Shown: piece after piece, positions 46,683 to 61,781 of the stretch
Numbering within the stretch: the stretch's first letter is position 1
Layout: each line of letters starts with the position of its first letter
Source: Rhodobiaceae bacterium
GTDB taxonomy: Bacteria > Pseudomonadota > Alphaproteobacteria > Parvibaculales > Parvibaculaceae
Length of the DNA stretch: 64,000 bases
Assembly (NCBI GenBank): GCA_003330885.1
Contig: CP030277.1
Span: 2,418,001 to 2,482,000, forward strand
Direction: 5' to 3'
Notes under the pieces: generated by a model
What the model was told of the DNA's origin: nothing
What the model saw: the letters and a program-made list of their open reading frames with translations, nothing else
Database searches by the model: none
Translations under genes and position numbers: made by a program

Positions 46683-48392
46683 CTATTCGTCTACAGCTTT
46701 TTGCTGCGGAAACAGTAGCTGGCGCCAGTCAATCGGCTCAACAGGATCAAGATGGGCCTCGAGTTCTAAAAGTGCTCGATTGCCCGGCGAATTTTCAACT
46801 GCTGCTGCTACCTGCTTCTCAAGCGCGGTAGGTTGGTCAGCTATTCTAATTCGTTCCGCCAAGAACAGAATTGCAGCTGTTTCAAGAAGCTGAGGAACTC
46901 GAAGCTTGTTCTTTTTGTTTCTTTCCCGAAAGTAGGTGTCCAATACATCTTGATGCGAAGACAAGCTCCATGTTGGAACCAAACCAAACAATAGGTGCAC
47001 AAACATTGATACAACGGAGGGGTCTTCTAATTCCGCCAAGTATTTCCCTCTAATTTTCTCAAAAGAGTCCATTTTCTCATTGGATGAAAGGAAGTGGTTG
47101 AAGAGAAAATATAGAGCCAAAAATGGGCGACGTTCGACAGATGTTGACACATCGAACAGACTCTCAGCTTTTGCAAGCATCTCTCGCAAATCTGTTAGAG
47201 CCGCTCCCTCCTGCCCTTGTATGACGGGCAGCAATTGCTCCAAGAATCCCTCTAGTCTCCTCATCCCATGTTGGATCGTCAGCCCTTCTGAACGCCAAAT
47301 CCAATATTGCGCAGCCATCTGCATAGACATTATGCCCGATTTTTCCATGAGATAGTCATACGGCTCACAATCAGTCTTTGGTTGAGTTTCAACAAACCTG
47401 CGGATCACATGTCGGACGAGACGAGTTAAACCTTGAAACGAAAGCACACTGTTGCCGCTGATCTGCACCACTTCGCCGTACTGCCGATCCAGAGTAAGTT
47501 CTTTAGGTAGCTCCTTCAATTTGTGCACGTATTGGGAGCGGAGATTGTAGGCCTGCCTCAAGGCACCGGGAAGCTCTGCTCTGCTGATAGGCCCGGGCTG
47601 GCCCAATGCTTCTTCTCTGAAATAGGAAGAACTTACGGTGGAGAGCACATATTCTCTGAACCTTCTAGCGAGCGAAACATGTTCTTGCTCCAACAAAACT
47701 TCTCTCACTCGCGCACCTATTGCCGGTTCATATTTATTCAGGACACGATCTATTTTACGCCTCTTCGTTTCATCATAGTCGCTCCAGACAGTTTCATGGC
47801 CGTCAAATTCCTGCACCAGCGACTCGATCGAGGCCACAAGCATCGTGTATGCAAGTTCGAGATCATCTGACAGCCTATGAAGGCCTGTCACATATGTCCG
47901 GATCGCCCTCATGGCTGCGAGGTAGCTCTTTCGCTCTAGGGCAATAAGGTCTTGCGCAAGCGCAATCAAAAGCTCTTCGTCCTGCGGCTTACACCACACC
48001 TCATTGTCAAAGACTCGTCTCACGAGTTTATCTGGGGGCGTAGCTACAGAGAGGGTTCCTTTTCCACTTGTCATGCGAGATGCCAAGTCATAGTCCGGCG
48101 TACTTACTACATTGAGAGCGAAGGACAACACTGCAGAAAAGTCTTGGATGTACGGCTCCATCCCGTGCGAAACTAAGACACCAGGTCCTTTCTCCTCCGC
48201 TTCAATCCGCTCAGTGAGCTCATAAACTACCGCCTTTGCCTCCCGCAATGTACTAGTTGGCTGCAGCCGCCCCATCGCTGTTTCAATCGGTCCGTCACGA
48301 CCCAATCTCAGGTTTGTGTATATGATCCCGCGCAGTTCATTCTGACGCCCAACTTCGCGAGTGAAAAGTTTACCCGAATTTATCTGCAGCAT
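46683..48392 (-). CDS. Unknown protein with a HEPN-type RxxxxH motif
   Basis: A 569-residue, mostly helical soluble protein. Residues 281-290 (AYNLRSQYVH) contain Arg285 and His290 in the R-x4-H arrangement of HEPN ribonucleases, in a helix preceded by a basic region. No other domain is recognised. HEPN proteins are often toxins or antiphage RNases, and its place at the edge of a defence island fits, but activity is inferred. It is alone, with its start at 48392 about 195 bp from the hipA stop. Confidence 0.65.
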   Translation of the reverse strand: MLQINSGKLFTREVGRQNELRGIIYTNLRLGRDGPIETAMGRLQPTSTLREAKAVVYELTERIEAEEKGPGVLVSHGMEPYIQDFSAVLSFALNVVSTPDYDLASRMTSGKGTLSVATPPDKLVRRVFDNEVWCKPQDEELLIALAQDLIALERKSYLAAMRAIRTYVTGLHRLSDDLELAYTMLVASIESLVQEFDGHETVWSDYDETKRRKIDRVLNKYEPAIGARVREVLLEQEHVSLARRFREYVLSTVSSSYFREEALGQPGPISRAELPGALRQAYNLRSQYVHKLKELPKELTLDRQYGEVVQISGNSVLSFQGLTRLVRHVIRRFVETQPKTDCEPYDYLMEKSGIMSMQMAAQYWIWRSEGLTIQHGMRRLEGFLEQLLPVIQGQEGAALTDLREMLAKAESLFDVSTSVERRPFLALYFLFNHFLSSNEKMDSFEKIRGKYLAELEDPSVVSMFVHLLFGLVPTWSLSSHQDVLDTYFRERNKKNKLRVPQLLETAAILFLAERIRIADQPTALEKQVAAAVENSPGNRALLELEAHLDPVEPIDWRQLLFPQQKAVDE

Positions 48393-48586
48393 TTCTTTGA
48401 CCTAAAGCTAGCCATGCAGAGCTGATGTGCTCAAAAATGTTTGTCGGATCCATATAGTAATCACATTGCAACTTAGACTTCAGCGCATGCAAATTGCAGT
48501 TGAAGTGCGCAGGAGTATGCTGCTTCCCATTTCAACTCGGTTGGGAAGTGGCAGAGATCATTTCTTTGCCTATCACTTGCTCTTCA

Positions 48587-49906
48587 TCAATTCATGTTTC
48601 CAACGATAGCAGCAGCACGTTCTCTCATGCCTAAGCCAATAGCTTCCGCAAGCCTGACTGGGAACCCATCAGGCATTGACCTAATTGTCTCTTGCAATGC
48701 ACCATCTAACGAAAGTTGAATTTCCTCGTATATTTCGATGGCCAAGTTAGTAGACAACGCAGCAGCCTTGGCAGACTGCGCGAAGTGTCGAGGGTGAATA
48801 CGGGAAAGGGCATAGTAACGGCTGTCTCCTGCAGCCATCGCGAGCTTTAGGTCACGCCTCCTCAGCTCGCCTGCCACATAGTTTGGTTGTGCCGACAGTA
48901 CGTCATAGAGAGGTGTCATACGAAAACGCCCTCCTGGCCGCAGAAAGACGCTGAAATTTTTGGCATGCCCGTCGGTGGCCGCCATCATCCAGAAAACTAT
49001 TTGTGACTTTAGAAAAAGACGCTGGTCTTCGTCTGGCCGGTCACTTGTTTTGAGGAGTCTCAGGCATTCGACAATACCAGGGCCTCCCTCAGAGTTATAC
49101 TTTTGAGCGGGTGGAACGGAGAGTGCCTGACAAAAATCTTCTTGAGGCAGCCGAAGAAGCCGTCCATCTTTTGTCCATGAACGGTCAAATCTCTCCACAG
49201 ATAGAACTCGGATGTCTTCAAAGTCGAGAATTTCGGTTTGCGCAACAGGTAAGCCGAGAGCCGAACAGAGGCGCATGCAAAAGTGTTCATTCTCAACGCT
49301 TTCAGTCATGTCTAGACCGTTAGGGAGCTTTCCAATTCGTGGCTTTAGAATATGGGTGGTTGCTGTTGCGCCGATAGGCTCCTGCCACAGACCATCGGAA
49401 AATAGTAATGCGGTTTTTTCCTGTGCACCAGCAATTGATATTCGGAAATCGCGATCATCACCCATTGTTATACCAAGAGGATTGGTGCGAAGCTCGCGGA
49501 GCAATTGGGCAATTTCGGCATTGTTTAACTCGTTGCCGCGTATGTACCCAACCTCTTCGATCGGTTCGTCGATTGGCACAAACTGAAGAGCACCAACACA
49601 GTCTCGCCCAATTTTTGAAAGGAGACTGAATGCGTCTGTATTGATCGCACCAGTTCGTTCCGCCAATCGTTTACGAATAACATCATTATCTGGAAGCAAA
49701 TTCTCAAATACAGCAGCTACTGGCGCACCGATATATTTCTGACGCCGTAGCTTGAGTGACAAAGAAATTGGAAAAGCATTCCGCCAATCCAGCCAGTCTT
49801 CTGAGTACACAAAGGAAATCGCACCGCTACTCGCACGTTCGAGGATGCCCACATTGCGCCCATTGAGGACGACATGCAGTTTTCCACTTAGGCGCGGGGG
49901 AGCCAC
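48587..49906 (-). CDS. hipA: HipA family serine/threonine kinase toxin
   Basis: A 439-residue HipA. The regulatory P-loop is RISIAGAQEKTAL (Ser157 equals the autophosphorylated Ser150 of E. coli HipA), HILKPR holds the ATP Lys, DGHAKNFS the catalytic loop, and PLYDVLS the metal Asp. In E. coli it phosphorylates glutamyl-tRNA synthetase and causes growth arrest; the target here is unknown. Start is GTG at 49906, sharing one base with the hipB TAG (TAGTG), so translation is coupled. Confidence 0.93.
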   Translation of the reverse strand: MAPPRLSGKLHVVLNGRNVGILERASSGAISFVYSEDWLDWRNAFPISLSLKLRRQKYIGAPVAAVFENLLPDNDVIRKRLAERTGAINTDAFSLLSKIGRDCVGALQFVPIDEPIEEVGYIRGNELNNAEIAQLLRELRTNPLGITMGDDRDFRISIAGAQEKTALLFSDGLWQEPIGATATTHILKPRIGKLPNGLDMTESVENEHFCMRLCSALGLPVAQTEILDFEDIRVLSVERFDRSWTKDGRLLRLPQEDFCQALSVPPAQKYNSEGGPGIVECLRLLKTSDRPDEDQRLFLKSQIVFWMMAATDGHAKNFSVFLRPGGRFRMTPLYDVLSAQPNYVAGELRRRDLKLAMAAGDSRYYALSRIHPRHFAQSAKAAALSTNLAIEIYEEIQLSLDGALQETIRSMPDGFPVRLAEAIGLGMRERAAAIVGNMN

Positions 49907-50175
49907 TAGAAGATATCCTCGATCCGCGCACTACTCTGACTACGCGTCTGGATGACTATTTCGATGTCGAGGGCGGCGATGACATCAAAAATTGTTTGGA
50001 GTTTCACCCCAGGTTGGCCAGCTTCAATCTTTGATATCGTTTTTTGATACGAACCGATCTTTTTCGCTAGATCGGTCTGAGTTAGCTCCAAATTCCGACG
50101 TCGGTTTCGAAGCACCTGTCCGAGCTGCTCTGGACTCCGGGCAATTGCTTCAGACATGGCCTTTTCATATGACAT
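49906..50175 (-). CDS. hipB: HipB antitoxin/repressor (Xre family)
   Basis: An 89-residue protein. The HTH is EQLGQVLRNRRRNLELTQTD followed by LAKKIGSYQKTISKIEAGQ. It would neutralise HipA and repress the operon. Start at 50175 is chosen because the longer reading to 50247 covers the repeat-containing promoter region. Three TATACCC(C) elements spaced 27 bp lie just upstream and are likely its operators. Confidence 0.9.
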   Translation of the reverse strand: MSYEKAMSEAIARSPEQLGQVLRNRRRNLELTQTDLAKKIGSYQKTISKIEAGQPGVKLQTIFDVIAALDIEIVIQTRSQSSARIEDIF

Positions 50176-50183
50176 ATCCGGAA

Positions 50184-50357
50184 TATACCCTAAACGACAT
50201 ATATTGTCAATATACCCCAAATAGGATAAAAATAAAATATACCCCAAAGAGTATATTTACAATGTCAACGAACAAGACCGTAGAGGACACCCACCCATTG
50301 ATCGAAACTTACATTGTAGTCAGGTATATTGGGTTGGAATCCACCAAAGTATACCCC
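50184..50357. promoter_or_regulatory. Array of TATACCCC elements between hipB and the CBASS operon
   Basis: TATACCC(C) occurs at 50184, 50211 and 50238 (exactly 27 bp apart, same orientation), again as the reverse complement GGTATATT at 50323-50330, and as TATACCCC at 50350-50357. The last two flank a weak inverted repeat 55-90 bp before the CD-NTase start. HipB operators in other bacteria are similar short repeated sites; control of both divergent operons by HipB is an inference. Confidence 0.65.
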
Positions 50358-50411
50358 ATATAGATTTATGGACATTTGGACATCTTAAGACTCAGCTGGA
50401 CAACCAAACCA

Positions 50412-51434
50412 ATGACCCCCAACGCCCGGTTTACAGAATTTATTACCGACATCACGCCTAGCACAACAACAAATAACCGCTCGGCGGCGGCTCATACATC
50501 GGTGAGAAATGCACTAACGAACGACGCTGATTACAAGAATGAAGTTATCCGTACATTTCTTGGGGGATCATACAAACGCAAAACAGCTATACGACCCGTT
50601 ATGAAAGACGGGGAGACCGAACGGCCCGACGTTGACATCTATGTTGTTGTGAACGGATCAGAATGGTCGAAAAGCCCAGAAGACATCATCAACGACCTAT
50701 ATTCCGCACTCAATCGAAGCCGCACCGAGCTAAACATCACTCGCCTAAAACGCAATAGATGTTCCATCGCAGTATCAACTGACAAAGCAGATATGGATGT
50801 ATCTCCGTTGCTGGAAAGAAGTTGGTCCGGTTTCTACCGTATTGGAAACCGCAACACGGGTGAATGGTACAACACAGACCCCGAAGGCCACACGACATGG
50901 TCAGCCAGCGTAAACAAAGGCGCGGGAAATCGATTCAATCCAATGGTCAAAATGCTGAAATGGAATCGACGCGAGTTTCCAACGAAAAACAAACATCCGA
51001 AAAGCATCGCATTGGAGGCTCTGGTAGCAAAACACATGAGCCGAACCGAGACCCACTATGGAAAATTGCTCCACGACACATTCGATGACATTGTTTCTGC
51101 GTATTCCATGAGCAGATTTCTCGGCACCTGCCCAACCATTGAAGATCCTTGTGTTCCCGGCGGCGATCTGCTCGGTGGTGTATCAGGAGAAGCTTTTTCC
51201 GCCTACTACGACAAACTCGAATATTTCCGCGATGAGGCCCGCAAAGGTTTGGATAGCGCGACGCAGGAAACAGCGACCAAGCATTGGCGGCGCATATTGG
51301 GACAACGCTTTCCCGCACCAAAATCAACCGGAACAACAAACTCGTCAGCTCTAAAATCTTCCATAGGCGTATCTCCACTATCATTTCCAGCAAAAGCATC
51401 AACCCCCCCCAACAAGCCTGCTGATTTCGCGTGA
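50412..51434 (+). CDS. CD-NTase (cGAS/DncV-like nucleotidyltransferase) of a type II CBASS-like operon
   Basis: A 340-residue nucleotidyltransferase. The active-site motif is FLGGSYKRKT (G51-G52-S53) followed by RPDVDIYV with Asp73 and Asp75; a third acidic site is DMDV (Asp127/129). This is the GGS-x(n)-DxD pattern of cyclic-oligonucleotide synthases. On phage infection such enzymes make a second messenger. Start ATG 50412 is preferred to TTG 50376, though its ribosome site is weak. The stop overlaps the next start by 4 bp. The product nucleotide cannot be read. Confidence 0.88.
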   Translation: MTPNARFTEFITDITPSTTTNNRSAAAHTSVRNALTNDADYKNEVIRTFLGGSYKRKTAIRPVMKDGETERPDVDIYVVVNGSEWSKSPEDIINDLYSALNRSRTELNITRLKRNRCSIAVSTDKADMDVSPLLERSWSGFYRIGNRNTGEWYNTDPEGHTTWSASVNKGAGNRFNPMVKMLKWNRREFPTKNKHPKSIALEALVAKHMSRTETHYGKLLHDTFDDIVSAYSMSRFLGTCPTIEDPCVPGGDLLGGVSGEAFSAYYDKLEYFRDEARKGLDSATQETATKHWRRILGQRFPAPKSTGTTNSSALKSSIGVSPLSFPAKASTPPNKPADFA

Positions 51435-53161
51435 CTATATGGTGGATGGAAAACCACTTACGGCTCAGTGAGGAACGCACCTCAATAGACGACCTGCGGT
51501 CAAAAGCTGATTGGCTGGAGAACGTGGAATGGTCGCTGGATGACAACAGCTGCATACGCATCATATTCGACATAAGACTCGACCACGATACTTTCAACCT
51601 TCAACTCACCTACCCGAATACATTTCCCAGTTCCGTTCCAAATATCACTCCTACTTGCAAAATTCGACTCTCGGAACACCAATATGGGAATGGCGACCTG
51701 TGCCTGGAAATACGACCAGACAATTGGCGGACCGAGTTCACCGGCGCTGACATGATTCAAAGCGCATTTAACCTACTAGACACGGAAAGGCCAGGCGTTG
51801 ATGGAACCAGTACCACAGCACCATCAGCTCACGATGTGCCAGAAGCTATCAGCATTCGTCACGAGATAAGCCGCTTCTACATCAGCCCTGAACATTTAGC
51901 AGTCATCACCACTGAAGCACACCGAGGGCTTACAGCAACACTTTGGGCATTATGGACAAACGAGAGCTTCATAGTTACCCACATCAAATCGCTCGAAGCA
52001 AATGATTGGTCTTGGGTCAACACATCAGTTCCTACGGCACTAAAGGAAAATACGCTCCCCCGAAAAGCGGTTGTGATCAAGACCGAGAAAAAGAAGTCTG
52101 CCTTTGGCAAAGTATCAAAAACTGAAGATCTCGGTAATATCTTGGGCAACCATCAGGAGCTAACCAAGACAAGTTACCATTGCATAGTCATCACCGCAGA
52201 CAATGAGGTCCTTCTCTTTCACCAAATCGAAGAGGTTAAGGGCTTAATACGCTACCGCACAATTATTGCTCCAAACGAAAACCAGCGACGATCAGGGGAG
52301 GAATATGCGGAGGTTGATAAAGTCCGAATAGGAATTGTGGGACTAGGCTCACTTGGATCAAAAATCGCAGTGTCTTTAGCCCGCGTTGGCATTGGTCGTT
52401 TCGATCTAATAGACGGAGATATTCTACATCCCGGAAACTTAGAACGCCACGACGCAGATTGGCGCGACATCGGCGCACATAAAGTCGATGCAGCCAAACA
52501 ACGAATGACACTTGTATCGCCAAATATTGAGATATCTGCTCGCCGCGTTTCCATCGGCGCACAAGTATCTGCAACCGAAGCTAGCAATGTCAACGGCGCC
52601 CTCGATAATTGCGACCTGATAATTGATGCAACGGCCAACCCAAATGTTTTTAACCATTTAGCTGGCATTACTACTGCATCAAGAAAAACACTGGTGTGGG
52701 GGGCTATTTACGCCGGAGGAATCGGTGGGTATATCGCACGCTCCAGACCAGACAAAGATGCCGGCCCATTTTTGATTAGGCAAGCGCTAAACGAGTTTTA
52801 CGAAACTATTGACGAGTCTCCCCCTACTACCGACAGAGAAGGTTATGATGGGCGGCGCGGAGACGAAGTGTTCATCGCTACAGACTCGGAAGTGTCAGTT
52901 ATCGCAAACCATATGACCAACTTCGCGCTCGACGCTTTGTTAGCAAGGGAGCCATCCTATTACCAAGATGCTGTTTATTTCATTGGTCTAAAAAGAGAAT
53001 GGGCATTTGAAGGGCCATTCCATGTCCAACCGATCAGCGTCACAGCATCAAATCACGGAAAGCAGAAAACAGGAAAGTGGGATCCTGTCCAGGCAGAGTT
53101 TTTGGGCGAGTTACTGGACCTGAAGCGCAATGAAATTGAGAATAGAAGAAAAAACAGTTAG
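51431..53161 (+). CDS. Cap2-like E2-E1 fusion (ubiquitin-transfer-like) protein
   Basis: A 576-residue fusion. Residues 1-120 are an E2-like domain with the Cys91 site in NGDLCLEIRPDNW. About 140-290 is a linker domain, and 298-520 a ThiF/E1 adenylation domain (GIVGLGSLGS at 301-310, LIDGD, NLERHDADW, DLIIDAT). In type II CBASS, Cap2 joins the CD-NTase C-terminus to a target and primes it. No cysteine occurs after Cys394, so the usual E1 catalytic Cys is not apparent. Start GTG at 51431 overlaps the upstream stop (GTGA). Confidence 0.88.
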   Translation: MTIWWMENHLRLSEERTSIDDLRSKADWLENVEWSLDDNSCIRIIFDIRLDHDTFNLQLTYPNTFPSSVPNITPTCKIRLSEHQYGNGDLCLEIRPDNWRTEFTGADMIQSAFNLLDTERPGVDGTSTTAPSAHDVPEAISIRHEISRFYISPEHLAVITTEAHRGLTATLWALWTNESFIVTHIKSLEANDWSWVNTSVPTALKENTLPRKAVVIKTEKKKSAFGKVSKTEDLGNILGNHQELTKTSYHCIVITADNEVLLFHQIEEVKGLIRYRTIIAPNENQRRSGEEYAEVDKVRIGIVGLGSLGSKIAVSLARVGIGRFDLIDGDILHPGNLERHDADWRDIGAHKVDAAKQRMTLVSPNIEISARRVSIGAQVSATEASNVNGALDNCDLIIDATANPNVFNHLAGITTASRKTLVWGAIYAGGIGGYIARSRPDKDAGPFLIRQALNEFYETIDESPPTTDREGYDGRRGDEVFIATDSEVSVIANHMTNFALDALLAREPSYYQDAVYFIGLKREWAFEGPFHVQPISVTASNHGKQKTGKWDPVQAEFLGELLDLKRNEIENRRKNS

Positions 53162-53609
53162 AGATTGGCGCCGCTCTCTACTCAACGCGATGACGCGGGA
53201 AATAGGAGGCGTCCTTTATGGAGAGCACGTCGGAGAAGCAGATTTTCGGGTTGTGGCCTTCAGCACGCAAACCGTCGGAGGCGATCAAACGAGTTTTCGC
53301 CGTGATGCACTCATCGCAAAAAGAGAACTTAGCGAAATGGCAAACGTGTTCGGAAACGAGCACAGTCGCTTCAATTACCTTGGTGAATGGCACTCCCATC
53401 CAAACGCGGAAGCACTACCTAGTCCAAAAGATATTGCCACCATGCACAACCTTTTGACGGATCCAACAACCAATGTAAATTTCCTAATACTCATAATTGT
53501 TCGACTCTCTCGGCACAACACTGTTGAAGTATCAGCACACACCTTTTTGGCCTCGGGACATACATTGCAGTGCGAAATTATGATTGAGAAAGGCGAAAGA
53601 GAACAATGA
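53130..53609 (+). CDS. Cap3-like JAB/JAMM isopeptidase
   Basis: A 159-residue metalloprotease with a complete JAMM site: Glu24 in REIGGVLYGE, His88-Ser-His90, and Ser98/Asp101 (E, HxH-x7-SxxD). Cap3 enzymes remove CD-NTase from its conjugation target and antagonise Cap2. The start overlaps the Cap2 gene by 32 bp and its stop overlaps the next ATG (ATGA), so the four genes are tightly coupled. Confidence 0.9.
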   Translation: MKLRIEEKTVRDWRRSLLNAMTREIGGVLYGEHVGEADFRVVAFSTQTVGGDQTSFRRDALIAKRELSEMANVFGNEHSRFNYLGEWHSHPNAEALPSPKDIATMHNLLTDPTTNVNFLILIIVRLSRHNTVEVSAHTFLASGHTLQCEIMIEKGEREQ

Positions 53610-54334
53610 CTGACTGGTCTCTACCCGTTTTGTTTAAGGGCCTCAGCGATACAATACAAAGAAAACTGGAGGTAACTCGCCAGACAATCGGGCACCCCGG
53701 TAGCAAGGGAGATGCAAGCGAGAAAGTTTGGCTGGACCTATTCAGACAATATCTACCTCAGAGATATCAAGCGGAAGCTGCTCACGTGGTCGACAGCGAA
53801 GGAAACTTCAGTGAACAGATAGATGTTCTGATTTTTGATCGACAGTATTCTCCCTTCATTTTTCAACACGAGGGTACCTATGTAGTGCCCGCAGAAAGCG
53901 TATACGCAGTTTTTGAGGCAAAGCAGACGATGAACGCCGGTCTAGTTGAATATGCACAGAAGAAGGTTGCTAGCGTCCGGCGCCTAAAACGCACAAGCCT
54001 CCCGATACCATACGCTGGAGGCATATATCGACCAAAAACTCCAATCAATATCCTAGGTGGTTTGCTTACGCTGGAGAGCGATTGGAAGCCTCCTCTTGGA
54101 GAGTCACTACAAAAGTCATTGTCAGGCGACCAAGAAGATGGGCGTCTTGATATGGTATGTGTTTCCTCACATGGATTCGCCATGTACGACGGAGGGCTCG
54201 GCAAATACTCGGTCACAGAAAATGGAAAGCCTGCAACCGGCTTTTTGTTTCGACTAATTTCCAAACTTCAATTTTGCGGAACGGTTCCTATGATAGACGT
54301 TGACGCCTACTCAAAGTGGCTCGATGTAGGTTAG
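53606..54334 (+). CDS. DUF6602-like, PD-(D/E)XK-type putative CBASS effector
   Basis: A 242-residue protein in the effector position. GHPGSKGDASEKVW, LPQRYQ and FSEQIDVLIFDRQYSPF match the DUF6602 pattern. Glu39, Asp73 and Glu104-x-Lys106 (FEAK) form a PD-(D/E)XK-like set, suggesting a nuclease. No SAVED, NucC-like, HNH, TIR, patatin or membrane domain is seen. The C-terminal 110 residues are uncharacterised and could bind the messenger. That it is the effector is inferred from operon position and coupling. Confidence 0.75.
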   Translation: MTDWSLPVLFKGLSDTIQRKLEVTRQTIGHPGSKGDASEKVWLDLFRQYLPQRYQAEAAHVVDSEGNFSEQIDVLIFDRQYSPFIFQHEGTYVVPAESVYAVFEAKQTMNAGLVEYAQKKVASVRRLKRTSLPIPYAGGIYRPKTPINILGGLLTLESDWKPPLGESLQKSLSGDQEDGRLDMVCVSSHGFAMYDGGLGKYSVTENGKPATGFLFRLISKLQFCGTVPMIDVDAYSKWLDVG

Positions 54335-54395
54335 CCTTTAGTAAAGCCCCAAAAGTAGCACCAAATGCCGACTGACCCTTACTTAATGCGGAACG

Positions 54396-55007
54396 TTACA
54401 GTTCCAACGCATAGAGCTCCTGAATTTCCTCCGACTGGATACAGAGGTACTCCAGCGTCTGCTGCTGTGTAGCATGACCGAACGCTTCCATAAGGAGAGG
54501 AACTGCTGCGCGGTTTTGAACCCGCTGATGGTAGCCCCAGGTCTTGCGTAGTGAGTGAGAACCAAAGTTCCCCTTCATACCAGCGGTGTCACACCAGTCT
54601 TTGACCATATTGGTGATGGTGGAGACGGTGAGCGCTGAACCACGTTTACGCGAAACAAATAGCGGCGATTGTGGCCGGGGGTCAGGGTGCACTGCAATCC
54701 AGGACTGAATTGCATTCACGACCAATTGATTAAACGTGGTCGCCCGATATTTCTTTGTTTTTTGTTGTTTGAGCTCAAATCGATCTCCGACTCCCAGGTG
54801 AGCAACATCACCTACTCTTATGCTGAGCAGTTCACTTGCCCGATAGGCTGTGTTGATACCGATGGTAAAAAGACAGAGGTCACGCGGCATATCTACAAGC
54901 CGCTTTTTGATGCGTTTGATATCTCGAAGGTCGCGGATTGGTTCAACTTTTATGGTCGAACCCTTCTTTGGATGATTGGGGTTTTTCTGTCTTTTTGGCA
55001 TGCCCAT
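54396..55007 (-). CDS. Small tyrosine recombinase (catalytic domain only)
   Basis: About 203 residues with the full catalytic set: Arg in NTAYRASELLSI, Lys region QQKTKKY, His-x-x-Arg in SHSLRKTWG, His in FGHATQ and Tyr in TLEYL. The usual N-terminal arm- and core-binding domains are nearly missing. It resembles plasmid resolvases (ResD-like) more than tRNA-site integrases. Start may be 55007 or 55001. It is convergent with the CBASS operon. Confidence 0.85.
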   Translation of the reverse strand: MGMPKRQKNPNHPKKGSTIKVEPIRDLRDIKRIKKRLVDMPRDLCLFTIGINTAYRASELLSIRVGDVAHLGVGDRFELKQQKTKKYRATTFNQLVVNAIQSWIAVHPDPRPQSPLFVSRKRGSALTVSTITNMVKDWCDTAGMKGNFGSHSLRKTWGYHQRVQNRAAVPLLMEAFGHATQQQTLEYLCIQSEEIQELYALEL

Positions 55008-55219
55008 CCATCTCTCTGATCTTTCAAATCTGAATCCCAACTATTATCTAAAAGTTGGGATAAGTATATGCCGACTGCTCTTCAGAGCAACTTCTTTCTG
55101 TGAGCCTTCAACTCGACATCAAGAAAAACCCTTGCCACAGGGCGTTAGCGGCTGAATGCCAAATTCTAGATAAATTCATTGATTTATTTTGGTTCAAAAA
55201 AGCCGCCAACTGCGCACAG

Positions 55220-55507
55220 ATGGACGACCAACGAATGCCCAAGCCAATCAAAGACACGGCAACTAAAGCCCTCAGAACCCATCTCATCGGCATGGCAATG
55301 ATAGTTCTGGGTCCGGTCAGCTGTGTAGGAGGAATAGCTCTGTTTCCGCCACAAGGAATGAACGACAAATCTTGGGTATCAGCCTTTCCCATTTTCATCT
55401 GCCTACTTTTGATCTTCGGCGGACTAATAATGGTGGTGACCAGCAACATCCGGGCGGCCCGCACTGCCGCACGAGCGGTCGACAATGTGGCAGATCAAGC
55501 CCAATGA
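55220..55507 (+). CDS. Unknown small two-helix membrane protein
   Basis: About 95 residues. Two membrane helices are clear (LIGMAMIVLGPVSCVGGIALF and FPIFICLLLIFGGLIMVV). The start is uncertain: ATG at 55220 or 55235. Its TGA overlaps the next ATG (ATGA at 55504), so it is paired with the secreted protein that follows. No family recognised. Confidence 0.6.
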   Translation: MDDQRMPKPIKDTATKALRTHLIGMAMIVLGPVSCVGGIALFPPQGMNDKSWVSAFPIFICLLLIFGGLIMVVTSNIRAARTAARAVDNVADQAQ

Positions 55508-56184
55508 AACCTTTTCATTTCATAATCAAAGCAATGCTCTCCGTAGTCCTTGTTGTTTCATCAGCTTACGCAGACGAAGGCACAAGTCCTCATGAACTCA
55601 CGTTGAGTTCAATTGAATGGGCATATTTTTTACACGCTCTGGACAAAGGTCTGCCCGCTCAAAATCTCGTCAATTGGCGATATGAAAGCTACCGCCAAGC
55701 CAAAGATGAGTTTGAGCGCCGTCGCATGCTGAACGAACTAAAGCCCGCAGTTGAAGAAACCTCAGCTCGTATCAGCGCAATAGATACGTTCACTACTCAG
55801 TTCACTGGGAAGTTCAAAGACTACCGCTTTGATGAACAATTACTTCCGCTAGAAAGCGACTTTCACAGCGAATATGGCTGGGGTATTGAAATTGAGAATG
55901 CTGAACACCTTGATATTCGCAGCGACTACGATTTTGAGGCATCACCACAACCCAGCAATCACTTTCGATTCTTGCCATTGGGGCCTGAGGACGCAGAATC
56001 GATTGTACGCGCAACACATGACACCGACCGGAAAGTGGTCGTGATCGTATCCTTCACACCCGCCAAACGGCGATATGTAACCGTGTACGTGGATATAACG
56101 AGGATTGACGTACTTCACCCTGAAACTATGCAGATCCTAGTATCCTGTGCACCAGGGGAAGAAATTCCAATCTGCGATCGTTAG
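55504..56184 (+). CDS. Unknown exported protein
   Basis: 226 residues with a signal peptide (MKPFHFIIKAMLSVVLVVSS, cleavage near AYA). The mature part is hydrophilic: ELTLSSIEWAYFLHALDKG, a helical YRQAKDEFERRRMLNELK, and a beta-rich C-terminus ending CAPGEEIPIC with two Cys. The start at 55504 overlaps the upstream stop by 4 bp. No family is recognised with confidence. Confidence 0.65.
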   Translation: MKPFHFIIKAMLSVVLVVSSAYADEGTSPHELTLSSIEWAYFLHALDKGLPAQNLVNWRYESYRQAKDEFERRRMLNELKPAVEETSARISAIDTFTTQFTGKFKDYRFDEQLLPLESDFHSEYGWGIEIENAEHLDIRSDYDFEASPQPSNHFRFLPLGPEDAESIVRATHDTDRKVVVIVSFTPAKRRYVTVYVDITRIDVLHPETMQILVSCAPGEEIPICDR

Positions 56185-56275
56185 AGATACAACCCAAAGC
56201 GAACAATCAAGGCACTTGCAATTTTTTCCAACAAGTCCAATACTATCCGTATACGAACTATGAAAGACGGAGTAT

Positions 56276-56623
56276 TTGGGATTCAAAAAAGAGAAGAAGA
56301 TAGGTGGACATTCAGCTGACGAGCGCGCTCGTTGGCACAAAGCAACAAAGCAGGCTGCTCCAAACACGTGGCGTACGGTAGAGCAGATAAAGAAAGATGC
56401 TTTTCAGGGGGCATCAGACGCCTTTCTACGACGCTTTGAAGAGCACGAAGATCTCATTGATGAAGGCCGCGCACATCGGGCAGAGCAAGCTTCAAAGAGC
56501 GCGGAAACGGCTCTATACATCGGGCCGGGACAAATACGCATCCCGAAAGGTTGGCCATCACTCCTGGAGTGGACAAAGGGCACACCACTCCCACCTGATG
56601 ATGGTAAAGACTTAGAGTATTAG
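56276..56623 (+). CDS. Small unknown protein, probable cargo gene
   Basis: 115 charged, helical residues. The start is TTG at 56276, with GGAG at 56269-56272 unusually close. KPxGWPSLLEW-like RIPKGWPSLLEWTKGTPLP is the most distinctive stretch. It overlaps the convergent relaxase stop by 4 bp. No function can be assigned and the frame itself is moderately certain. Confidence 0.45.
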   Translation: MGFKKEKKIGGHSADERARWHKATKQAAPNTWRTVEQIKKDAFQGASDAFLRRFEEHEDLIDEGRAHRAEQASKSAETALYIGPGQIRIPKGWPSLLEWTKGTPLPPDDGKDLEY

Positions 56624-57624
56624 AGATCATGTTCATCCAGATCGTCACGCACCCTGCTGGCGATCTTGTCTTTTCTGGGACGCTTTAAGCGTTCCATCAT
56701 GCTGAGTTGACGGCCAAACACCCAATCCCTCAAGGTGACCCCTGCACGGACGACACGGTCTTTCAGCCCCCGTGCTAAATCCCAATAGTTGGCAGGCTGC
56801 TGGCGCTCGTCATGTCGTTCCTCGGCATAGTCACTAAACGACTTTCCGAAACGTTCTTCCAACTCAGTCTTCCGAACCTTTTTGCCCATCTCCGAGAGTT
56901 TCGCGTATTTCTCTCCATTGGTAAGTATGAGACCAGGGCCTTTGGCGTAGAGCGTTACCCCTTCCTCCTGAAGCTTCTGCTCCAGAATTTCCCAGCTATC
57001 AGCTGCTTCGAAGGCAGGAGTGAGCCTATCCTTCAGCTCCGTCACATCTTCCTTGCTCCAATGGTCGAGGGTTGTCACATCCAATCGCTCGGCCATCCTC
57101 TGTTCGCCTTTGTGTGGGCGACGAGGCTCCTTCTCGAACCGCTCCTCACTAGACAGCCTCCCTGGCACTTCAGTCAGGCCCAGCTCCTTCTCCTGGGCCT
57201 TGAGCGACTTTTCCAGGCGCGTCTTGTATTTCCACTTCTCCCAGGCAACGCCTGTCTCCGGATGCACCCGATTGACCATCACATGGAGGTGGGGGTGATC
57301 CGTATCGTTATGGGCAACGATAATGGCCTGATGCTCTTCCAAGCTAAGATCGGCAAGGGTCCGGTCTGCGACCTTGAGCATATCTTCTTGGCAGAGCTGC
57401 TCATATTCAGGCCAACTAATGGAATAATGAAAAACGGGGTCTTCCACCCGTTTCGACAAGGACGCTGTCGCTCTCATCATGGAGGGAACCAGGTCAGGGT
57501 CCGCTGTCGGCAAATTGCGGGCCGCCGTCCATTCTACCCTTTCTGGACTATCGCCCTTTCGACCGAAATGGAGATATTTGGCCAGCCCGCTAAAGCCGGA
57601 TCCTGTACGGGCGTCTCCAATCAT
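56620..57624 (-). CDS. Relaxase / mobilization nuclease (MobA/VirD2-like)
   Basis: A 334-residue relaxase. The metal-binding motif III is HNDTDHPHLHVMVN (His105, His110, His112, His114). Tyr17 in LAKYLHFG is a candidate nicking Tyr. The C-terminal half is charged and helical with no primase or helicase domain. It would nick oriT and pilot DNA to the coupling protein. It follows MobC by 14 bp in the same direction. Confidence 0.9.
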   Translation of the reverse strand: MIGDARTGSGFSGLAKYLHFGRKGDSPERVEWTAARNLPTADPDLVPSMMRATASLSKRVEDPVFHYSISWPEYEQLCQEDMLKVADRTLADLSLEEHQAIIVAHNDTDHPHLHVMVNRVHPETGVAWEKWKYKTRLEKSLKAQEKELGLTEVPGRLSSEERFEKEPRRPHKGEQRMAERLDVTTLDHWSKEDVTELKDRLTPAFEAADSWEILEQKLQEEGVTLYAKGPGLILTNGEKYAKLSEMGKKVRKTELEERFGKSFSDYAEERHDERQQPANYWDLARGLKDRVVRAGVTLRDWVFGRQLSMMERLKRPRKDKIASRVRDDLDEHDL

Positions 57625-57638
57625 GTTTGGAGGCCTCC

Positions 57639-57968
57639 CTACCCGATCCGGCGCACAGCCGAAAGAACTTCCCCTAAGGCCGTTTCCAGTGCCTGAGCGA
57701 CTGGAAACTGGCCTGCATGGGCAAGCTTCGTCAGTTGGTTGAGGTTATTCCCGAGAGCCGTTAACTGACGGATAGTTTCGGCTGCAACGCGTGTCGGTTT
57801 TGCCTTAGGCTTCTCGCCCAAAGCTGACGCGCGCACAAATGCTGCATGGGTTAACCCGCTGGCCTCAGCTGCTTCTTGCAGCTGCGCGAACTCTCCCGCT
57901 GTGAAGTAGGCCTTCACGCAGCGGGTCCGTCGTTCGCTCTCTGGCTTGCGGTAATCCCTGGTTGGCAT
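57639..57968 (-). CDS. mobC: Relaxosome accessory protein MobC
   Basis: A 109-residue protein. RTRCVKAYFTAGEFAQLQEA, GLTHAAFVRASALG and LTALGNNLNQLTKLAHAGQ are the usual MobC segments. The N-terminus is ribbon-helix-helix-like, for DNA binding. It helps open oriT for the relaxase. Its start is 75 bp from the candidate oriT inverted repeat. Confidence 0.9.
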   Translation of the reverse strand: MPTRDYRKPESERRTRCVKAYFTAGEFAQLQEAAEASGLTHAAFVRASALGEKPKAKPTRVAAETIRQLTALGNNLNQLTKLAHAGQFPVAQALETALGEVLSAVRRIG

Positions 57969-58042
57969 TTGTCATAAGCTCCCGGCGCTTGAGGGCAAGC
58001 AGGGCGTCGAGCCAACACCTCCAGGTGGCGATGAGATTGCCC

Positions 58043-58078
58043 AGGTTTGGAGACCATTTTTGGGCCCAAACCTCCTGC
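58043..58078. other. Candidate origin of transfer (oriT)
   Basis: Inverted repeat AGGTTTGG (58043-58050) and CCAAACCT (58066-58073) followed at once by TCCTGC (58073-58078), similar to the nic region of MOBP-type plasmids (ATCCTG-C). It lies between the mob genes and the coupling protein gene, the usual place. Not proven. Confidence 0.5.
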
Positions 58079-58198
58079 TTGCTCCTAAAACCAACACTAC
58101 CCTTTACATAAAACGCTACAGGCCGACTAGGAACACTTCAAGCTTTAACATAAACTATATGTTTTACTCATCGACACGTCAGCACACAGGAAGCCCAA

Positions 58199-60484
58199 AT
58201 GTCAAAAGGTGCAAAATCTCTACTAGCGGCTCTCGGCATATTCATCTTTGCCTTTCTGTTCTCCAATATCATCCCGAGTTTCACAAAACCGCTGATCCAA
58301 TTGTCTTTTGTCAGCTGTCTCGGGTACGGCCTTTACAGGGTCAGCAAAGATAAATACACCGCTTCCATGGCAGCCAGGACCGATGAGCCGAAAGTTACAA
58401 ATCCAACCCTTCTCGAAGCCGCTCGTGCCGAAGGCGAAAAGATAAAGGCCGCACAGCAACACTCAGTCACGCCAGAAAATGACGATAGGGCCAAACGCTG
58501 TTCAGAGATCCTCTCTCTGATGGATGATGAGGCAGCGATTGCCGTGTTTAATGCGGGGGCCGTCATGACGGATGAAGAGCATAAGAACTTCAAAAAGACC
58601 GTCGATCGAGAGACCAGCGAACCGCACAAGTTTCAGGGAATAGATGCCCAGGCGCTGGGCAACGCCGCTGGTCACATTATCGGAAGGGAGATCGGTAATT
58701 TCGCCCGGAACCTCTCAACCGGACGCTATCCAAACGATGTGTCCTTTAGCTCCGCAGTTGGCAGCATCTCTGAGTCCAACCGCCAATTTCTGAGGATTGG
58801 AAGCATCTTGATGAAACACGAGATTCTTGAACAGGAATGGTTAGAAAGCGCCCTTGCTAGCGTGATCTTCACGAGCGGGAACCAGTCGGTACATGAAATC
58901 AAAAACAATGCGGAACGTTGGACAATTGCGTTCAAGGTGTTGTTAGAAACACTGGGAAACTGCCTAGTGAATGAGGACCATCTCCAGCAAGAGATGGTTA
59001 GCATCACTGCTCAAATTCAAAGAGAGCAGCCACACTCCAAAGTTGGGCAGGAATTGGCGAAGCTGGCGGATGGGGGCGCCGCCTGGCTCAACGGTGCCGA
59101 CATTCCAAACAGCATCTACAATCCGATCTTGGGAAATGGCCTCTTCTTGGGTGAACTGGAAGACGGAACCCGGCTGAACTACGATGGTGAAGGGTCCCTC
59201 TTCACCATTGCTCCTCCCGGTGCAGGCAAAAGCCGTTGTCAGGTCATCCCAAACTTACTGGTCTACGATGGTCCCGCGATCGTGCTCGATATCAAGGGCG
59301 AGTGCTACGAAGATACAGCCGGACATCGCTCGCAACGATATGGCAAAGTCATTCGCTTTGCCCCTCACGATAAAGAAACGTCGGCCCGGTATAACCCGCT
59401 TGAGTTCGTAAGAAGTGACCCGGAGCACATCGCATCGGATGCCCGCAAAATGGCAGACATGCTGATCGTCTCAGATGGAAGAACAAAAGACCCTTACTGG
59501 CAAAATAAAGGCCGAGATTTTCTAACAGCCTATATTGCCTTTATCGCACTCCTTCCCGAAAGTGATCCAGAGCGTACGATGCAGTCGGTCATGGATATGA
59601 TGTCACCAACTGAGGACATGCTCACAAACGCTGTCGATGAGCTACGAAAAACCGGGATCAAATATCTTGGTCGGATCGCAAACCAGATTACGACCATGCC
59701 GGAGAAACAGCGGGAATCTGCGATGGACGTCGCAAGAGAACAGCTTAGTGCGTGGGATTTGGGCGACCTGGACAGTGTAACAACCCATTGTGATTGGAAG
59801 CCGGAGGACTTTAGAAGCTCAAGCAGCCCAACAACACTTTACCTCTGTGTTCTACCTGAAGACATTGACCGCTTTGCATCTGTGCTGCGGGTAATCATTG
59901 GTCAGCACCTTGAGTACTTCATGAAGGAGATACCTGAAAAAGCAGAACGACCCATTGTCTTCTTCCTCGATGAAGTGCCACAGCTTGGTAACTTCGAACC
60001 ACTTCCCAAAGCTGCGTCTCTTGGACGGCAGTATGGACTACAACTCTGGCTGTTCGCACAAAACCGCGACCAGATAGAGAAAGCATACAAAAGCGCCGAC
60101 ACAATACTTGGCAACGCCGTCGTGCAATGCTGGATGAATTGCGATGAAGATTCAGCAGCTAAGCTTGAAAGAAACCTTGGCACCTCACGAGGCCTTCTGG
60201 ATGGCAAGACAAAACCCCTTGTCCAATCACACGAGCTGCGGGGGCCAGAATATGATGACAAGATAATTGTCGTTGGCCGGGGTCAAAAGCCCGCCAAGCT
60301 CACTAAGCGCATGGTGTTTGATGATCCTGAGCTTAGCGGGCTTGTCGGACTTGATTTCAACTCAGGTAGTGGTAGTGCTGTCGTCGAGGAAGCGATCCCT
60401 TCCCCTTCTGCCGTCGACGAGATACCGGAGACAGCGGTTGAGCCTGACATTGGACAGCCAGTTGAAACCAGTCAGCCCAGGTGA
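58199..60484 (+). CDS. VirD4/TraG-type coupling protein (T4CP)
   Basis: A 761-residue ATPase. Two N-terminal membrane helices (LLAALGIFIFAFLFSNIIP and LIQLSFVSCLGYGLYRV), a long helical insert to about 310, Walker A APPGAGKSR near 340, Walker B IVFFLDEVPQLG, and QYGLQLWLFAQNRDQI further on. It links a relaxosome to a type IV secretion channel. The start has CAGGAAG upstream. Its presence without other transfer genes indicates that the island borrows a channel. Confidence 0.9.
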   Translation: MSKGAKSLLAALGIFIFAFLFSNIIPSFTKPLIQLSFVSCLGYGLYRVSKDKYTASMAARTDEPKVTNPTLLEAARAEGEKIKAAQQHSVTPENDDRAKRCSEILSLMDDEAAIAVFNAGAVMTDEEHKNFKKTVDRETSEPHKFQGIDAQALGNAAGHIIGREIGNFARNLSTGRYPNDVSFSSAVGSISESNRQFLRIGSILMKHEILEQEWLESALASVIFTSGNQSVHEIKNNAERWTIAFKVLLETLGNCLVNEDHLQQEMVSITAQIQREQPHSKVGQELAKLADGGAAWLNGADIPNSIYNPILGNGLFLGELEDGTRLNYDGEGSLFTIAPPGAGKSRCQVIPNLLVYDGPAIVLDIKGECYEDTAGHRSQRYGKVIRFAPHDKETSARYNPLEFVRSDPEHIASDARKMADMLIVSDGRTKDPYWQNKGRDFLTAYIAFIALLPESDPERTMQSVMDMMSPTEDMLTNAVDELRKTGIKYLGRIANQITTMPEKQRESAMDVAREQLSAWDLGDLDSVTTHCDWKPEDFRSSSSPTTLYLCVLPEDIDRFASVLRVIIGQHLEYFMKEIPEKAERPIVFFLDEVPQLGNFEPLPKAASLGRQYGLQLWLFAQNRDQIEKAYKSADTILGNAVVQCWMNCDEDSAAKLERNLGTSRGLLDGKTKPLVQSHELRGPEYDDKIIVVGRGQKPAKLTKRMVFDDPELSGLVGLDFNSGSGSAVVEEAIPSPSAVDEIPETAVEPDIGQPVETSQPR

Positions 60485-60725
60485 TCGCAGAGAAGTTCTA
60501 GAAGGTACTTTTTCTGAGGGCGGAAAGCGGAAAGCTTCGAAGTCCCAATTGGCCCTCAACCCATTGCTCGCCGAAACAATATCCCTCACCAATACGTCTA
60601 AGGATTGCGCCGCCGAGGGTAGCCACGCTGCCGTCGATAAGGGTGAAGCTGGGTGGGTCGAAGTTTGCGACCACATTGCGCCAACCGACACCAATCGACC
60701 CAAGTGATCGTGGAGAAAGCTAGAA
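60446..60725. repeat. Degenerate direct repeat around the T4CP end
   Basis: 60446-60503 and 60670-60725 are roughly 70 percent alike by eye, sharing CA-GTGATCG and GAGAA-TAGAA landmarks at matching places. The first covers the coupling-protein stop. On the minus strand both encode FS-x-ITW-x-DW-x2-LA in the same frame. It may be the scar of an old duplication. Confidence 0.45.
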
Positions 60726-60993
60726 ATTTGTTCGTCTGGGCGACGAAGGCTGGGAGTTCTGTCTCCTCAAACTTCCACGCCTCGGTCACAATTTCATAGG
60801 CACGCCGACCCGTTTCAACATCCTGTAGATCACAAATGAACTGCCAATCACGACCATTGTCATCGGGCTGAGCCGGTTCAATCCAATAGTGGACGCTGTG
60901 ATTGCCGCCATATCCGGAGCTCCGGTTCACATATATGCGCCGAACAACATCTTCCCGTGTCCTGGGGACCGGCCATGGATTAAGTGTGATCAT
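60598..60993 (-). CDS. Unknown protein, possibly frameshifted at its C-terminus
   Basis: 131 residues. The first 95 (VVRRIYVNRSSGYGGNHSVH, WQFICDLQDVETGRRAYEIV) look like a real soluble domain. The rest is unusually rich in Arg and Cys. Another frame, from about 60700 down to 60497, reads a more protein-like stretch (GVGWRNVVANFDPPSFTLID, ATLGGAILRRIGEGYCFGEQ). A frameshift near 60700 would join them into a protein of about 165 residues. No family recognised. Confidence 0.45.
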   Translation of the reverse strand: MITLNPWPVPRTREDVVRRIYVNRSSGYGGNHSVHYWIEPAQPDDNGRDWQFICDLQDVETGRRAYEIVTEAWKFEETELPAFVAQTNKFLAFSTITWVDWCRLAQCGRKLRPTQLHPYRRQRGYPRRRNP

Positions 60994-61325
60994 TCTTTAA
61001 GCAAATCCCAGCCTGTTTGGATGAACAACCAAATCTGACCGAAGCAGTCCATATCGATGAATTTCGTGCGCTTGGTCAGACAAAGGATGACATATGTCAG
61101 ATCAACCGCAGACGCCCGGTCCACGTCCTGCTTCTCAAACGTAAGGAAACTGCGGTTAGTTTTAGGTCATCCCATTGGAGAGGATTTCTTTCCGGTAGAC
61201 GATGCGGCTTCTCGTCTGTTGTCATTATTTCAAACGGGACAGGAAAAATCAGACGACGCAACAAACCAGATACAAAAAGGGTGCTTCACAAAACAGATTT
61301 GTCTTTTGAGCAGAACCGACATGTC

Positions 61326-61781
61326 ATGAACGAGACATACGCTGAACTAGCAACACTTCGGCACGTCAGAGTCGATGGCCGAGCAGCTCTAGACTATCTC
61401 GCCAGCCAAATCGACAGCCTCGTCTACGAGCTGCAACTCAAGAACCAAAACCTGGAGAAGCTAAACACGACCTACGCAGCCCTCAATCAAGTTCGGTTGT
61501 ATTTCCAGCTGCACTACCGTGAACAGCCCTTAGATCATTTTCGGCGCAAACTGAACAAGGTCATTTCCGAAGCCGCCGAAAAAGCAGATATGAGAACGGC
61601 CGCAAAAGTGAGAATCTTGCTTGATGACGCGGTAACCCATTGCATTGAGTCAGGTCAGCTGTACGAAACTACCGCTGAAGACGCAGCTCGGTGGCTTCAA
61701 GTAGCTACGATGGCGAGAGAGACTGCCAGGCAACACCACAAACACACTCAGGACCATTCCTCCGACACAAAGACAGTGTAA
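61326..61781 (+). CDS. Unknown helical protein at the island end
   Basis: About 151 residues from ATG 61326; the same frame is open back to 61017, but the upstream part is low-complexity and basic. The body is helical (VDGRAALDYLASQIDSLVYE, RRKLNKVISEAAEKADMRTA). It ends with a His/Thr-rich tail. No family or ribosome site recognised. Probable cargo of the island. Confidence 0.5.
   Translation: MNETYAELATLRHVRVDGRAALDYLASQIDSLVYELQLKNQNLEKLNTTYAALNQVRLYFQLHYREQPLDHFRRKLNKVISEAAEKADMRTAAKVRILLDDAVTHCIESGQLYETTAEDAARWLQVATMARETARQHHKHTQDHSSDTKTV

Follow-up and report, generated by a model that had tools for sequence, protein, structure and literature searches.

A 27-bp-phased array of predicted HipB operators at a hipBA promoter adjoining a divergent type II CBASS operon

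The operators of the Escherichia coli hipBA promoter, TATCCN8GGATA, are bound by HipB (PMC3376134) and represent the published HipB sites (PMC3376134; PMC3920265); inspection of the E. coli K-12 sequence revealed four of them, set at distances of 28, 39 and 28 bp. For the hipBA1 and hipBA2 promoters of Caulobacter crescentus, PMC7029023 describes inverted repeats at regular intervals, which its authors compare with the HipA/HipB/promoter complexes of E. coli. Known regulators of CBASS and other immune operons are CapW/BrxR, CapH together with CapP and CapK together with CapS (PMC13373217). Both kinds of genes meet in the genomic region of a Rhodobiaceae bacterium investigated here (the 64-kb stretch of DNA that was analysed as a whole, hereafter the window). 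A preliminary description of this DNA had interpreted the region between the hipBA and CBASS operons as a 27-bp-phased array shared by both promoters, with HipB controlling the defence operon as well as its own. According to our analysis, the phased array is very probably the autoregulatory operator array of a hipBA module located on a mobile element, with CBASS as exchangeable cargo; this reading is based on the anatomy of the repeats, their conservation among relatives and the position at which DNA homology ends.

The hipBA genes and the operator array

The array is adjoined by genes for an HTH protein and a kinase that were identified as hipB and hipA by Pfam and NCBIfam. The hipB gene (49906–50175, − strand) encodes an antitoxin and HTH repressor (HTH_3) of 89 aa when read from the ATG at 50175, an alternative start being the ATG at 50157; its matches to the couple_hipB (TIGR03070) and HipB models were below the curated cut-offs, and solved E. 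coli HipB chains were among the structures nearest to it (E about 1e-6). The hipA gene (48587–49906, − strand) encodes a Ser/Thr kinase toxin of 439 aa (HipA_C, 1.3e-51; Couple_hipA, 4e-27). The 569-aa protein encoded downstream of hipA (46683–48392, − strand) matched no Pfam, NCBIfam or PADLOC model and had no match at the related hipBA loci compared.

An exact word scan placed TATACCC on the + strand at 50184, 50211, 50238 and 50350 (as TATACCCT at the first and as TATACCCC at the other three positions), and the exact 27-bp spacing of the first three copies, as reported in the preliminary description, was confirmed. The word is enriched in the window (seven occurrences versus 1.29 expected; none of 100 shuffles reached seven). 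Because the relatives show it, the true repeat unit was recognised as an 18-bp inverted repeat, TATACCC-N4-GGGTATA, present in three copies, and not as an 8-mer. With a position weight matrix derived from nine operators in the arrays of three close relatives (L002, L071, L031), full sites in the window were obtained at the three array positions only: the predicted operator nearest to hipB, which is the third array member (50184–50201, − strand; TATGTCGTTTAGGGTATA on the hipB strand; 16.4 bits, among the three best scores of the whole window), the predicted middle operator (50211–50228, − strand; TATCCTATTTGGGGTATA on the hipB strand; 15.7 bits) and the predicted outermost operator (50238–50255, − strand; TATACTCTTTGGGGTATA on the hipB strand; 20.9 bits). 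The last-mentioned is the sole site in the 3.86-Mb genome that differs by at most one mismatch from TATACCCN4GGGTATA; the left halves are degenerate in two of this genome's operators. When the array search was applied to 300 shuffles of the promoter itself, the observed score was never reached. A genome-wide HipB regulon did not emerge from the scan at up to three mismatches, which yielded 40 places versus 115 for the reversed pattern and thus no excess.

The best promoter of the region overlaps the array (50182–50210, − strand): its −35 box TTGACA (50210–50205) and −10 box TATATT (50187–50182) are separated by a 17-nt spacer and agree with the consensus at 11 of 12 positions. Most of the −35 box is situated in the linker separating two operators; the −10 box overlaps the right half of the hipB-proximal operator. 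It stops 6 nt upstream of the hipB ATG (50173–50187, − strand); the hipB transcript may be leaderless unless the ATG at 50157 is used.

By analogy with E. coli HipB, HipB dimers would bind the three 18-bp inverted repeats 27 bp apart, probably with HipA as co-repressor; given that the linker holds most of the −35 box and the hipB-proximal operator carries the −10 box, HipB on the array would block RNA polymerase at the hipBA promoter. The earlier proposal that HipB binds the array is supported by homology to this extent, and a second regulator could share the sites. As judged from its sequence, the array is of the ordinary HipB operator type, the presumed self-control switch of a toxin-antitoxin pair.

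The array in related hipBA loci and on a related mobile element

About 110 hipBA loci were collected for comparison. Among 93 hipBA upstream regions (this one excluded), self-identity rose from a background of about 0.25 to 0.42 at a lag of 27 bp and peaked again at 54. The 27-bp palindrome array scored above the best shuffled control in 89 of 93 regions (92 relatives and this one; median score 24.7 versus 14.7 in shuffles), and periods of 24–26 and 28–30 bp gave background scores only in the same 93 promoter regions. The half-site reads TATACCC in the closest relatives (HipB 62–66% identical); elsewhere it reads TATACGC in many loci, TTTACGC in many Rhodobacteraceae and TATGATC in a few. Its sequence varies with the HipB lineage while the 27-bp spacing is kept (loci L002–L110), and the distance from the array to the hipB start is variable. 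Repeats phased at 27 bp are, in consequence of these data, the standard hipBA promoter layout in a large, mainly alphaproteobacterial clade; the operator specificity of HipB can be read from sequence over about a hundred loci, whose shifting half-sites and constant spacing offer natural variation for studying which DNA HipB recognises. The motif search in related hipBA loci that the preliminary description had suggested bore out the array. Exact extra half-sites beyond it were rare, with six hits among 81 loci when this one and its duplicate record are counted, and some of these hits are extensions of the array.

A coding origin of the repeat is hardly conceivable in view of these comparisons. 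The frame is indeed open from a TTG at 50247, from which hipB would begin with MGYILFLSYLGYIDNICRLGYIPDM, and 27 bp, a multiple of three, would correspond to nine codons; yet it is a DNA palindrome and its phase that the relatives preserve, while the halves differ and the distance to the hipB start varies, and the TTG would lie upstream of the −10 box of the sole good promoter.

The affiliation of the array is further illustrated by a genome of the same genus (G009), in which DNA similarity detected by blastn covers window positions 48753–50258, i.e. hipBA and the three operators, ends at 50258 (3 bp beyond the outermost operator) and resumes at the genes for an integrase (54404), a relaxase and a TraD-like coupling protein. 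Between the shared blocks, G009 contains an HTH gene, a caspase-like gene and SIR2 and Argonaute genes, and no CBASS. As the homologous segment comprises hipBA and its operators next to other cargo, the array is to be assigned to hipBA, and it is the defence genes that have been exchanged: in this genus, hipBA stays on the mobile element while the adjoining defence cargo is swapped.

The two stretches (window 46683–61700; G009:C1:2133300–2152455; L122, L140) represent mobile elements that are homologous between two congeneric species; hipBA, integrase, relaxase and TraD-like coupling protein are common to both, and the cargo differs (type II CBASS with NucC here versus HTH, caspase-like, SIR2 and Argonaute genes in G009). 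A search for direct repeats at the ends of the mobile element yielded no convincing pair. A general location of hipBA in defence islands was considered and rejected: only four PADLOC families, with one protein each, were represented among 69 neighbouring proteins.

The CBASS operon and its upstream region

The divergent operon comprises the genes for a CD-NTase (50412–51434, + strand; SMODS, 1.9e-42; PDLC00773 over residues 1–340), Cap2 (E1-E2; 51431–53161, + strand; PDLC00855, 5e-183), Cap3 (JAB isopeptidase; 53130–53609, + strand; PDLC00893, 3e-46) and the effector nuclease NucC (53606–54334, + strand; PDLC00745, 6e-104; PDLC01051, 6e-60), which together in one operon constitute a type II CBASS with NucC. 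The ATG at 50412 was adopted as the CD-NTase start, as the alignments with homologues and with the PADLOC profile begin at residue 1. The divergent orientation and the gene identities given previously for both operons were borne out.

The matrix scan found no full HipB operator at the CBASS promoter. Upstream of CBASS, a solitary perfect half-site is predicted at 50350–50358 (− strand, TGGGGTATA; 13.9 bits with the half-site matrix), the sole half-site hit of at least 11 bits in the window besides the three operators; its partner half is absent, and the full-site score is only 5.5 versus 15.7–20.9 at the array operators. A weak half-site (50320–50328, + strand, TCAGGTATA) scores 7.3 bits, which 39 places in the window attain, and overlaps the −10 box, TATATT (50325–50330), of a weak promoter-like sequence that would read into CBASS; this promoter-like sequence matches the consensus at 9 of 12 positions, about the number expected by chance. 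Of the two CBASS-side copies reported in the preliminary description, the one at 50350 was found as stated; the reverse copy at 50323 was not, the sequence there being GGTATAT, which holds only TATACC on the − strand and, with an A before it on the + strand, reads TATACCT. Likewise, the 27-bp phasing held for the three copies at hipBA, with the 18-bp inverted repeat as their unit, but does not extend to the CBASS side: 50350 is 112 bp from 50238, and the element at 50323 has the opposite orientation.

Three of the six copies of the word TATACCCCA in the 3.86-Mb genome are located here. In shuffles of the 156-bp CBASS side (50256–50411), TATACCCCA arose in 0.6%, TATACCC in 4.4% and at least two TATACC in 1% of cases, and the 18 nt at 50346–50363 are identical to the outermost operator region at 15 positions, an agreement attained by 2 of 150 shuffles; these tests overlap one another and were chosen after the word had been seen. 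Such words arise in AT-rich promoters too: of the three copies of TATACCCCA elsewhere in the genome, at least two fall where no long open frame is present, one of these within the −10-like context GGGGTATATT. The half-site at 50350 is therewith mildly surprising, but it is no operator.

It is unlikely, on balance, that HipB uses the half-sites at 50320 and 50350 and the adjacent array to repress the divergent CBASS operon as well, in which case the toxin and the antiphage system alike would be freed when HipB is lost. The location of one of only four half-sites of at least 11 bits within the CBASS upstream region, its likeness there to the outermost operator region and the word probabilities (P 0.006–0.04) point in this direction, as do the known repressors of adjacent CBASS operons (CapW, CapH with CapP, CapK with CapS; PMC13373217) and the title of Lin et al. 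2013, as cited in PMC7029023, according to which E. coli HipB regulates multiple promoters. However, the CBASS side is devoid of a full operator, its half-sites are oppositely oriented and do not keep the 27-bp phase of the array, similar words also arise in AT-rich promoters, and additional half-sites past the array are not general in hipBA promoters. Moreover, the association itself is not conserved: CBASS adjoins no other hipBA locus examined, and the sister genome retains hipBA and the array with other cargo. No CBASS protein had a match at the other hipBA loci compared, and hipBA was absent from the annotated stretch of four plasmid relatives of the CBASS operon; the power of this comparison is limited by the rarity of the CD-NTase family (present in 1 of 385 and in 2 of 398 genomes when this one is counted; one other relative found). 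The assumption of an array shared with CBASS, by which CBASS would come under HipB, thus meets one perfect and one weak half-site, and a single half-site is all that carries the proposed connection of persistence with antiphage defence at this locus. That CBASS shares the control by HipB is a weakly supported possibility, which the sequence does not establish. Quite doubtful, too, is a scheme in which HipB(A) at the array and the distal half-site holds CBASS down until stress destroys HipB and frees the HipA kinase along with the CBASS operon. No toxin-antitoxin repressor acting as CBASS regulator was found in the literature searched, and such control might be new.

The CBASS promoter might also be served by an unrelated regulator on an imperfect dyad at 50323–50355 (GGTATATTGGGTTGGA/TCCACCAAAGTATACC), the likeness to a HipB half-site being coincidental. 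Its 16-nt arms are 75% complementary and 1 nt apart, although the statistics are weak (an equally good dyad appeared in 15 of 500 shuffles) and hipB is the only candidate regulator gene seen beside the operon; as RNA, the CBASS leader folds no better than its shuffles (z −0.33). This explanation is regarded as very improbable. If the array serves the autoregulation of hipBA, the isolated half-site close to the start of CBASS would be incidental or, at most, provide a weak accessory contact.

Comparison with described systems

The arrangement resembles CapW/BrxR, CapH with CapP and CapK with CapS in that a repressor gene adjoins an immune operon, and CapK with CapS additionally in the pairing of a kinase with a repressor. 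In contrast to CapW, which is released by ssDNA (PMC13373217), HipBA is a toxin-antitoxin pair with its main sites at its own promoter; it also differs from CapH, a repressor cleaved by its protease, and from CapS with its STAS and wHTH domains (PMC13373217). WYL domains, an HTH combined with a protease, or STAS-wHTH with an anti-sigma-type kinase were not encountered at this locus, HipB consisting of a single HTH domain with HipA adjacent. The series of regular inverted repeats is shared with hipBA1 and hipBA2 of Caulobacter crescentus, for which the excerpted text of PMC7029023 mentions no CBASS neighbour, whereas CBASS is present here. As in E. coli K-12, several copies of an 18-bp inverted repeat with 5-bp halves and 8 bp between them are located on the promoter of a HipB-type HTH repressor and a HipA toxin; the halves read TATAC(CC) here versus TATCC in E. 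coli K-12, and three copies at intervals of 27/27 bp stand against four at 28/39/28 bp.
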